The notes under the pieces: model-generated | Seen by the model: the letters and a program-made list of their open reading frames with translations, nothing else | Told to the model about the DNA's origin: nothing | Database searches by the model: none | Program-made: the position numbers and the translations under genes | NCBI RefSeq assembly: GCF_001506165.1 | Contig: NZ_CP011427.1 | Location: forward strand, 2,418,001-2,482,000 | Direction: 5' to 3' | DNA length: 64,000 nucleotides | DNA from: Pantoea vagans | Lineage (GTDB): Bacteria; Pseudomonadota; Gammaproteobacteria; Enterobacterales; Enterobacteriaceae | In this document: piece by piece, positions 10,966-49,960 of the stretch | Layout of the letters: the number at the start of each line of letters is the position of its first letter | How positions within the stretch are numbered: the stretch's first letter is position 1

Positions 10966-11539
10966 GGCGGCGATTCTAAATAGTGTCCCTGGATAGCGCC
11001 ACCCCTTTTTCTGTGCTTAACTCTCTCTTTATCGCGTTGGGAAAAGGTCTTAATGATGACTTTTTCATCAAAGCGAGGTTAAGCCCTGCAAATGAACAGG
11101 TTAAGGATGCACAAACTTCACAGCTCGGCAAAAGTCGCCTTGCTATATGTTGGTGAGCAATGGAATAATGCAGGGGTTTCTGTCCTGGAAAGAGTCAGGC
11201 AGGAAAAAGAGCGAAATTAAGGTATTTTGCCGGATGAAACTGACACGCAGCAATGGCGTAAGACGTGATGTTTAATCAGGCACTTAGCGGGCTGCGGGTT
11301 GCGGCCTGGACGACAGACTAGGATGTGTGGATTTCTGAATACTCTGTAGCAATTCCACCTTCAGGCGCTGGTTTTCCTTATGAAAAACAGGCCACCGACA
11401 AGATTTGCGCCTCTTTAGCCGACGACAACCGTGAGGTTGACGTCAGTGCATTAAGACACGAGGCCATCGGTTGATTCTCGTCCATGGGTAACGATGCCCG
11501 CAGCTTTATCACTCATGTGAGAATAACGAGTAAGTCACG
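10966..11539 (+). promoter_or_regulatory. Long untranslated leader / promoter region of rne
   Basis: 574 bp with no credible ORF (stops in all + frames) separate rluC and rne. In E. coli the rne mRNA has a 361-nt structured leader through which RNase E autoregulates its own decay, so the same is inferred here. Visible pairing includes the local stem TTGCT/AGCAA (about 11139-11160) and a long-range CCCTGCA/TGCAGGG match. The bases just before the ATG lack a strong ribosome site. Confidence 0.65.
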
Positions 11540-46985: not shown

Positions 46986-48110
46986 ATGAGTTCAGCAAAA
47001 CCCGAACGCGAATATTTTCTCGACTCCATCCGAGCATATTTGATGTTATTAGGCGTACCCTTTCACGTCTCTCTGATTTACTCCACTCAGCGCTGGGCTG
47101 TTAACAGCCAGGATGCCTCTATGTGGTTGACGGTGTTGAATGATTTTATTCACGCGTTCCGCATGCAGGTCTTCTTCGTTATATCCGGTTATTTTTCCTA
47201 CATGCTCTATCTGCGCTACAAGCCTCAACGCTGGTTGAAGGTGCGCATGGAGCGTGTTGGCATCCCCCTTTTGACAGCCATTCCGCTGATTACGTTGCCG
47301 CAGTTTTTTATGCTAAAAAACCTCACGGATAAGGTAGGGAATTGGGATAGCTTTTCGCTGTATGACAAGTACAACACCCTGGCCTGGGAACTGATTTCTC
47401 ACCTGTGGTTTTTGCTGGTACTGGTGATCCTGACAGCACTGGGTATGTTGACGTTCCGTTGGTTACGTACCCAGCAACGCCGCATTGATTATCAGCAGGT
47501 TGGCTGGGGGAAATTGACGCTGGCCTTTTTGGCTTATGCGCTGCTGTGGTGCCTGTTCCGCCGCGCCCTGTTTTACACCGTACCCGCGGTTTTCGCCGAC
47601 GGTTTGTTTAGCGTAGCCGTGATGCAAACTCTGACGTTCTTGCCGTTCTTTATGCTGGGTGCATTGGCCTGGAAGCATCAGGCACTGAAAGCGCTGTTTG
47701 TACGTTTCAACCCGGTGATGTGCTTTGGTGCTATCGCCGTGTTTATTGCTTACAGCTTGAATCAGCGCTACAGCAGCGGCGACGGTTGGTTATATGAAAT
47801 TGATGCCATTGTCTCGACTCTGATGGGCTTGTGCATGTTGAATGTCTGTTTTAGCTTTGGTCACAAGCTGCTGAACAGCCATTCACCGCGCATTATGTAT
47901 CTGGTCAATGCCTCGCTGTTTATCTACCTGGTGCACCATCCACTGACCATTTTGTACGGTATTTACGTTGTGCCGCACATCAGCAGCAACACGCTGGGCT
48001 TCTTTGTCGGTTTGGCTATGGTGTTTGGTATCGCCTTTACCCTGTATGAAATCCATCTTCGTATCCCGCTACTGCGCTTCCTGTTCTCGGGTAAACCGCA
48101 ACGTAAATAG
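46986..48110 (+). CDS. opgC: Glucans biosynthesis protein C (succinyltransferase)
   Basis: Acyltransferase-3 family membrane protein that adds succinyl groups to periplasmic glucans. The 374-aa product has about ten membrane segments and family motifs [19 protein letters not shown], in the first helix, and [12 protein letters not shown]. Divergent from opgGH across 249 bp, as in E. coli. A structured element follows. Confidence 0.95.
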
Positions 48111-48155
48111 TGACTTGGTGAGTTATATCACCCACTGCCCAGCCTGCTCATGAGC

Positions 48156-48412
48156 TTCAGTGCGAGTTGTAAAAAAGGGCACGTTGTCTGAGGCCATGAC
48201 GCCTCTACTGCCCCCTCAGGGCTATCCGCAGCGCTGAGACTTTTACGTTGGGCCAGGAGCCCCACGCGGGGAGGCGTGGGGCAGTTCGCGGCCGACCATG
48301 GATGGTCATCCGCGAACGGTCCGTCCGGCACGACGTGGAAGTCGAAGGTACCGCTTTAGCGGCGCGAGGACGGCCCAGAGGGGGCAGTAGTGGCGGCAGA
48401 GCCCGCACTGAA
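48156..48412. other. Multi-stem structured intergenic element
   Basis: GC-rich gene-free element between opgC and clsC. Outer pair TTCAGTGCG/CGCACTGAA (48156-48164 with 48404-48412). A second pair of 17 positions with one mismatch spans 48200-48216 and 48379-48395, extended inward by GGGC/GCCC. Inside are a perfect 9-bp hairpin (48259-48282), a GTTCGCGG/CCGCGAAC stem capped by GACCA/TGGTC (48284-48317), and CCGTCC/GGACGG (48321-48326 with 48368-48373) enclosing two 4-bp stems. The layout resembles a multibranch RNA or a palindromic miniature mobile element. Frames here have no family resemblance. Confidence 0.7.
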
Positions 48413-48499
48413 AACAAAGGCCACTTATTAATAAGCAGCCTGAGTGCTTAACTGACGAGCATTACGCACTACATGAGTGATGCGCAATAAATCGCGTCG

Positions 48500-49960
48500 C
48501 TACAGCAACCACTCCACCGGTAAGCGCCACACCAGTCGCACCAGCAGTCGTTGCATCAAGGTGCACTGCGGTTCGTGTTTATGCACCACTTCGCCTGACT
48601 CCCCCTCGTACTCCACCCAGTTCACGCGGCCCCAGCTATCCAGCCTTAATGTCCAGGCACGATCGCGCATCCCGGCAATAAAGCGCTGATGGGTTTGCTG
48701 CGCCAAGGTTTCACTTTCAATCACCAAGCCCATCTCGGTATTTAACACCGCCGATCGCGGATCAAAATTAAACGAGCCAATAAACACCTTTCGGTTATCC
48801 ACGGTGAACGTTTTGGCGTGCAAACTTGAACCTGAGTTACCGGTCAAACCGCGGTCGTGCGGCGCTTCGCTGGCATTGTCTTGAGGCTTCATCTCATACA
48901 GCGCAATGCCGTGGCGCAGTAATTTTTTGCGCCAGCGCGCATAACCGGCGTGGACGACCGAGACATCGTTTGCCGCCAGCGAGTTGGTCAGGACTGCAAT
49001 TTTTACACCACGCCTTTTTAAGGCGAGCAATTGAGCCACACCCGCGCGCGTCGGCACAAAATAGGCTGAAATAATGTCGAATTGCTGCTGTGGAGTGCCG
49101 ATCACCTCCAGCATACGCTGCGGTAGCAGGCTGGAGCGCTTGGCCTTACCTAACCCTTTGCGCGGGTCGTCGCTTAACAACCGCGATTCTGCCCAGGTCA
49201 TCTGCATAGAGCCCTGCTCCATCTGACTGACAAAAGATGAGTGTTCCAGCCTGGCAAGATAGCGCTGCACTGCCTCGCTCTGCTGCCATTCCGTCGGTAA
49301 ACGCACCGCTTGATGCGCATCGCCGGAGACATCGACCACGCTGCGCAATGGCGAAACCGCTTTACTGTTCCAGTACCGCTCAAAATCGTGCGCCACCTGT
49401 TGCACCACCGGCCCTATTGCCAGCACGTCCAGGTCAGTGAACAGCGGCTCGTCACCGGTACCAAAATATTCATCGCCGATATTGCGGCCCCCCACCAGCG
49501 TCACCGCGCCATCTACCGTCAGGCTCTTATTATGCATACGGCGATTAAGACGAGCGAAATCGGTTAAATAACCCAGCGCACGCAATGTGCGAAATGAAAA
49601 GGGGTTGAATAGCCGCACGGCAATATTGGGATGGCGATCGAGCTCGGCCAGCGTGTCATCGAGGCCTGGCGTGTTGTTATCATCCAGCAGCAAACGTACT
49701 TTAACGCCACGTTCAGCGGCATCCAACAATGCGCTAAACAGCAATCGACCCGACATATCGTTGTGCCAGATGTAGTACTGCACATCGATAGTGTGCTGCG
49801 CCATGCCCATCACCAGGTATCGCGCAGCAAACGCATCCAGCCCATCGTTGAGCGGATGAATACCGCTCATATCCGGATGCAGCGCACAGCGCGCATCAAT
49901 AATTTCTCGTAACCCCTCTCCTGCCGGCGATGGGTATTGCACAGGTGCTGCTTCACTCAT
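48500..49960 (-). CDS. clsC: Cardiolipin synthase C (phospholipase D superfamily)
   Basis: Makes cardiolipin from phosphatidylethanolamine and phosphatidylglycerol in E. coli, where it works with YmdB. The 486-aa product has two HxK(x)4D motifs, HNKSLTVD and HAKTFTVD, each followed by the usual Gly/Asn segment (GGRNIGDEYF; GSFNFDPRS). Convergent with opgC as in E. coli. The partner gene ymdB is not next to it here. Confidence 0.94.
   Translation of the reverse strand: MSEAAPVQYPSPAGEGLREIIDARCALHPDMSGIHPLNDGLDAFAARYLVMGMAQHTIDVQYYIWHNDMSGRLLFSALLDAAERGVKVRLLLDDNNTPGLDDTLAELDRHPNIAVRLFNPFSFRTLRALGYLTDFARLNRRMHNKSLTVDGAVTLVGGRNIGDEYFGTGDEPLFTDLDVLAIGPVVQQVAHDFERYWNSKAVSPLRSVVDVSGDAHQAVRLPTEWQQSEAVQRYLARLEHSSFVSQMEQGSMQMTWAESRLLSDDPRKGLGKAKRSSLLPQRMLEVIGTPQQQFDIISAYFVPTRAGVAQLLALKRRGVKIAVLTNSLAANDVSVVHAGYARWRKKLLRHGIALYEMKPQDNASEAPHDRGLTGNSGSSLHAKTFTVDNRKVFIGSFNFDPRSAVLNTEMGLVIESETLAQQTHQRFIAGMRDRAWTLRLDSWGRVNWVEYEGESGEVVHKHEPQCTLMQRLLVRLVWRLPVEWLL

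Follow-up and report, generated by a model that had tools for sequence, protein, structure and literature searches.

The folded stretch between opgC and a cardiolipin-synthase-like gene (positions 48156-48412 of the window, the 64,000-nucleotide stretch of Pantoea vagans DNA that was analysed) is, judged from sequence comparison, the remnant of a non-autonomous IS4-type element (MITE), of which the right half survives. That the element is an IS4-type MITE with a TwoAYGGAY cargo is almost certain. Our main reading, to which we assign a probability of roughly 0.55, is that an IS4-mobilised MITE seeds GGA-loop structures, which are possible CsrA sites, at gene ends. The features of the locus are as follows.

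46986-48110, plus strand: opgC (mdoC), the upstream gene, which could read into the arm (open reading frame; NCBIfam MdoC, 528.8 bits).
48138-48464, plus strand: right half of the IS4-type MITE, left end and left arm missing (from similarity to own-genome copies and alignment with nine fuller copies).
48205-48390, plus strand: folded arm, a TwoAYGGAY-like structured unit with a 13-bp outer stem (fold z -9.48; match to covariance model R1).
48254-48330, plus strand: match to Rfam RF01731, TwoAYGGAY, model positions 43-121 of 168 (47.7 bits, gathering score 43).
48259-48282, plus strand: hairpin A, a perfect 9-bp stem (48259-48267 with 48274-48282) and loop GGGGAG containing GGA (sequence, fold and helix covariation).
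48284-48317, plus strand: hairpin B, an 8-bp stem (48284-48291 with 48310-48317), inner GACC/GGTC and loop ATGGAT containing GGA (sequence, fold and helix covariation).
48351-48362, plus strand: short CCGC/GCGG hairpin of the model structure (alignment and model).
48418-48441, minus strand: terminator-like hairpin with a T-rich tail, pointing into the element (pattern scan; eight other Pantoea copies have right ends of similar sequence).
48447-48464, minus strand: right terminal inverted repeat, with the minus-strand reading TAATGCTCGTCAGTTAAG (pattern search, one mismatch).
48500-49960, minus strand: cardiolipin-synthase-like PLD gene, the convergent neighbour (open reading frame; Pfam PLDc_2).

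The strong branched folding noted at 48156-48412 in the preliminary description proved to be non-random. The folding energy of positions 48140-48430 was -163.8 kcal/mol; shuffled sequences averaged -116.1 (sd 5.4), giving z -8.79, and none of 200 shuffles was as stable as the native sequence. The core alone (186 bases) is closed by the 13-bp outer stem, in which 48205-48217 pairs with 48378-48390. Nested outer stems and perfect 9-bp and 8-bp internal stems had been reported, and stems were recovered both in the sequence and in the fold. The CCGC/GCGG hairpin was invariant in all 14 rows of an arm alignment and had 99.5% of its cells paired in a larger, model-fitted one; it was absent from the minimum-energy fold of the window copy, where the region was paired otherwise. 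Since the minus strand of the same stretch folded almost equally well (z -8.03), stability alone cannot separate action as RNA from action as DNA.

A BLAST search of 48120-48440 against the own genome for dispersed copies returned 52 matches, and the sequence is therefore a repeat. Model R1, built from 14 arms of three genomes (the own genome, G146 and G098), gave 40 matches in the own genome, some of them partial. On the window arm it scored 149.3 bits at 48219-48378, this arm being one of the 14 source sequences of the model. The fuller copies possessed a second, inverted arm, about 68% alike. Ten pairs of own-genome R1 matches were less than 400 bases apart, all ten divergent and with a spacing of 95 bases in nine and 91 in one, and the other 20 matches were unpaired. 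Among 92 loci beyond the own-genome set, 53 of the 56 neighbouring hits closer than 400 bases were divergent, three were tandem and none was convergent, in a count that took in the 150 of 163 matches that were aligned. In one own-genome copy (L057, 480-2140) some 1.45 kb of inserted sequence separates the two parts; the insert has two ORFs on the minus strand (277 and 177 aa) with the look of a transposase pair. The parts of the L048 copy are about as far apart.

A structured RNA gene confined to the opgC-clsC locus would also have a strong branched fold. We rejected this candidate, which is extremely improbable given the 40 own-genome matches and the absence of the element from the same locus in related genomes. 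An OpgC search of 40 genomes of the genus matched 39, from which 30 loci were fetched, including the own locus. R1 matched only the window locus (1/30) and the element was missing from the opgC locus in all 29 others. The opgC-clsC gap was 393 bases long in the own genome. One of the other loci (L317) had no clsC in reach, leaving 28 measured gaps, of which 22 were 29-137 bases long and six were 176-299. The gaps of L315, L316 and L318-L321 contained a different repeat, with hairpin loops like CAGGGATG or CCAGGGATGG. Of the convergent opgC and clsC flanks first proposed for the feature, opgC and the convergence are upheld; the second gene can be called only a PLD-type, cardiolipin-synthase-like gene, its top NCBIfam model (ClsB, 106.9 bits) being below the cut-off of 281.

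The fuller own-genome copies spanned about 548 bp between 18-bp inverted ends reading TAATGCTTGTCAGTTAAG or close to it. With up to three mismatches allowed, 50 end-like sites were found in the own genome, against one for a reversed control pattern, and terminal inverted repeats were also present in 14 aligned composites. A target duplication score of at least 8 (11-14 bp, no more than two mismatches) was reached by 18 of 43 end pairs and by 1.3% of 1806 mismatched pairings. In the remaining 25 pairs the duplication was weaker or not seen. The 43 pairs were drawn from own and other Pantoea/Erwinia loci, and three rows came from one locus, L047, with tandem left ends. In that locus (75-180) two extra 44-base copies of the end unit stood in tandem before the left end.

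In the window copy, likeness to the other own-genome copies began at query base 19 (48138), inside the spacer between the arms, and stopped at the right terminal repeat (48464). As the left end and left arm are missing, the target duplication of this copy is unreadable. The extent first given, 48156-48412, does hold the fold, but the element continues to the terminal repeat and the window has only half of it. The reported lack of a T-tract needs amending, as the terminator-like hairpin with its T-rich tail lies just outside that stretch, at 48441-48418 on the minus strand. No transposase gene was found inside the window copy, the longest ORFs crossing it having 67-70 codons. The suggestion of a palindromic mini-transposon is thus borne out by dispersed copies, inverted ends, target duplications and the lack of an internal transposase gene. 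It had been set against a structured RNA; the MITE is well supported, and its cargo is a covarying fold which may act as RNA.

The ends connect the MITE to IS4. Genes matching Nterm_IS4 were present in four of 30 genomes of the genus and none was found in the own assembly, which is one contig and may lack plasmids. In L261 a 459-aa IS4-family transposase (292.8 bits, cut-off 115) lies between TAATGCCGATCAGTTAAG and CTTAACTGACAAGCATTA, flanked on either side by CGCGATTTATCGCG, a 14-bp palindromic duplication. The right end of this Pantoea IS4 was identical to the MITE 18-mer. Its left end, which is common to the Pantoea IS4 and the annotated IS4 of E. coli 118UI, differed at three of 18 positions (15/18 as in the MITE). 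The same ends recur in a second locus (L264), with a 14-bp repeat to either side. The MITE further resembles IS4 in its palindromic target duplications (11-14 bp). Unlike IS4, it has no transposase gene, and it carries as cargo two structured arms in divergent orientation. Within the fetched stretches, an IS4-like end with at most three mismatches was detected in 24 of the 32 own loci, in 51 of the 79 from Pantoea/Erwinia and in none of the 64 from other genera (some overlapping). Among seven E. coli loci one had such an end, and this was IS4 itself. Since the fold was present in the other genera, it is more widely distributed than the MITE.

Target sites were reconstructed by joining the flanks minus the duplication, and were scored for likeness to a rho-independent terminator. 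In other Pantoea/Erwinia loci 21 of 28 targets were terminator-like, against 84 of 929 pieces drawn at random from those loci. These 28 sites are partly non-independent, as L178 and L210 are near identical and may be a single site sampled from two strains. Of the 16 own-genome targets only four were terminator-like, against 1 of 22 controls. As scored from the rejoined flanks, insertions of the MITE in other Pantoea/Erwinia are thus mostly at terminator-like sites. At its right end the element has a terminator-like hairpin of its own, facing inward, and similar sequence was found in eight other copies. A plain terminator was considered as the identity of the core and rejected, though this hairpin adjoins the core.

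These targets, the hairpin that the element carries and the very stable arm adjoining the opgC stop would also suit a mobile 3'-end element that splits a terminator and brings its own hairpins and an inward terminator. Its main effect would then be on termination or mRNA stability, with no role for CsrA. We consider this rather unlikely, as it leaves the conserved GGA loops unexplained and the carried terminator faces one way only.

According to the preliminary description the fold matched no named family. This does not stand, as the scan with Rfam models gave a match above the cut-off to RF01731 (TwoAYGGAY), an Rfam family whose function is unknown. Twenty-five of 32 own-genome matches passed the cut-off, while RF01731 gave no matches in 14 control genomes. 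Like the family, the window copy has two hairpins with GGA-containing loops. The match is partial, however, and AYGGAY was not found in both terminal loops of the window copy, loop B reading ATGGAT and loop A GGGGAG. We therefore call the unit TwoAYGGAY-like, a match by score and not a strict sequence member. A further difference is that Rfam lists the family as cis-regulatory, whereas the unit found here is scattered through the genome as a MITE-borne repeat. TwoAYGGAY is listed for human gut, gamma-Proteobacteria and Clostridiales in the available excerpt of Weinberg et al. 2010 (PMC2864571). A description as a mobile repeat did not appear in the available portions of some published accounts of TwoAYGGAY, PMC2864571 and PMC4333381 among them.

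In a MAFFT alignment of the 14 arms, both-side changes were found at 20 of 41 pairs. There were 67 doubly changed cells, whereas shuffling gave 20.4 on average and sliding the partners gave 9-17, the structure having been drawn by hand from folds of the same sequences. In the model-fitted alignment of 150 matches, 37 of 40 pairs changed on both sides (841 cells against 262). Thirteen shorter rows were left out of the loop counts. Among the 137 full-length rows GGA was present in loop A of all 137 and in loop B of 130, and it was present in both loops of 23 out of 23 sequences less than 80% alike, with varied neighbours and differing stems; in these counts the loop was read with its adjacent bases, and the search model itself holds GGA loops, so that its hits lean that way. 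Overall, GGA was barely more frequent per arm than in shuffled sequences (5.04 against 4.65). ANGGA occurred 1.65 times per arm, against 1.01 in shuffled sequences, and TCC 2.2 times. As a strand test, G-U cells were compared with A-C cells, giving 18 against 15 in the 23 dissimilar rows, 19 against 19 in the 14 rows of A2 and, over the full 137 rows, 176 against 43.

A possible reading that we hold to be on the improbable side is a purely selfish MITE with no RNA role. Its fold would act as DNA during transposition or replication, forming cruciforms or hairpins in single strands, much as an oversized inverted REP pair would. This reading fits the folding of both strands, the inverted pairs of arms and the near equality of G-U and A-C cells in the less redundant sets, and no sigma-70-like promoter was seen in 47950-48700. 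However, one strand keeps GGA in both loops although the stems vary, and the fold is widespread without IS4 ends (0/64 loci of other genera, within the fetched stretch). We consider that the fold probably acts as RNA.

Whether such an RNA would be a ligand of CsrA is judged by analogy, and we place binding at slightly below even odds. The idea follows from the shape of the loops, the Rfam clan shared with CsrC, a published motif match and the presence of a CsrA gene. The window arm has the paired GGA-loop hairpins expected of a CsrA-binding RNA (loops GGGGAG and ATGGAT), which is also its likeness to CsrA decoys of the CsrB/CsrC/RsmX type, and clan CL00106 holds both RF01731 and CsrC. The motif match is that of TwoAYGGAY to the CsrA site, given in the available portion of PMC4333381. 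Unlike the decoys, the arms are multi-copy and mobile, and CsrA binding is here predicted from loop shape. Canonical CsrB or CsrC was rejected as a candidate, with no match in 38 loci scanned (E up to 0.1 or 0.05). Of RF00018 and RF00084, only CsrC gave a match in the window, scoring 13.6 bits where the cut-off is 61 (minus strand, 48412-48470).

Under the main reading, that of an IS4-mobilised MITE which seeds GGA-loop structures at gene ends, an IS4-family transposase supplied in trans would move the MITE, and insertion into a terminator would weaken that terminator. Read-through from the preceding gene, here opgC, would then transcribe the sense arm as a 3' extension. The arm RNA would fold into two GGA-loop hairpins, the shape recognised by a CsrA/RsmA dimer, and each transcribed copy would become a tethered or free CsrA site. 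Whether mobile DNA carries the binding sites of a global RNA regulator to new places becomes directly testable.

When R1 was run across the GTDB family, with no more than 10 candidates scored in any one genome, it matched 82 of 295 genomes (46 of 154 genera). In an order-wide sample, which overlaps the GTDB-family set and in which weaker single hits were included as scored, matches came from 43 of 345 genomes (13 of 108 genera). All five R1-matching loci examined from one other family also matched RF01731 over the whole model length. A window-specific 27-mer had no match among named genomes. A looser conserved 27-base pattern, derived from the own arms and hence tilted towards Pantoea-like arms, matched 87 stretches; 79 of the 80 listed were from Pantoea/Erwinia and one from Enterobacter. 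All 41 matching plasmid records were from Pantoea. No match was found in the phage collection at E 1e-5.

The E. coli genomes were searched with two elements. The L151 element was found in 4119 of 5426 genomes, with a median of one place per genome and at least 80% of the query covered in 1903 genomes; the L145 element gave no match. The places inspected were tauA-mmuM, proX and yegH-asmA, with no annotated feature in the opened regions, and the copies were truncated in the K-12 record inspected. A scan of four E. coli loci reported no RF01731 match within E 0.05. In E. coli 118UI (L288, 2501-2820) an annotated IS4 begins about 100 bases past the fold at proX, and strain elppa9 has no IS4 there.

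Many Enterobacterales genomes thus have, as a dispersed repeat, an Rfam family of unknown function, and in Pantoea/Erwinia one form of it is carried by an IS4-type MITE, mostly into terminator-like sites. This would account for a number of unannotated structured intergenic gaps. A wider proposal is that TwoAYGGAY-like units are mobile CsrA-binding elements across Enterobacterales, with relatives in E. coli, of which a Pantoea/Erwinia IS4-type MITE took up a divergent pair that it sows into terminators. The 3' ends of genes would then become CsrA sites, and copy number would be a heritable dial on the Csr system. This proposal is doubtful at present.

ERIC, BIME, REPIN and RSA are enterobacterial repeats. 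With these (BIME/REPIN together) and with the Coxiella QMITEs the element has in common, by description and not by sequence, that it is a short dispersed palindromic element. Three sRNAs are said, in the available part of PMC10969869, to derive from Coxiella QMITE2. Our literature search found no publication on an IS4-linked palindromic MITE in Erwinia or on IS4 targeting of terminator hairpins. For CsrA in connection with transposable elements or MITEs, one of the accounts found deals, in its available part, with the CsrA motif apart from MITEs.

In other genera, tandem minisatellites flank copies of the fold in L104 (G115), L157-L164 (G222) and L275-L284 (G020). Among these minisatellites are runs of TTTTGGG, TTGACCTTAAAGCCC units and a repeat about 48 bases long. 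Elsewhere in the window, 11176-11515 is an ordinary RNase E 5' UTR element, rne5 (RF00040, 196.6 bits).
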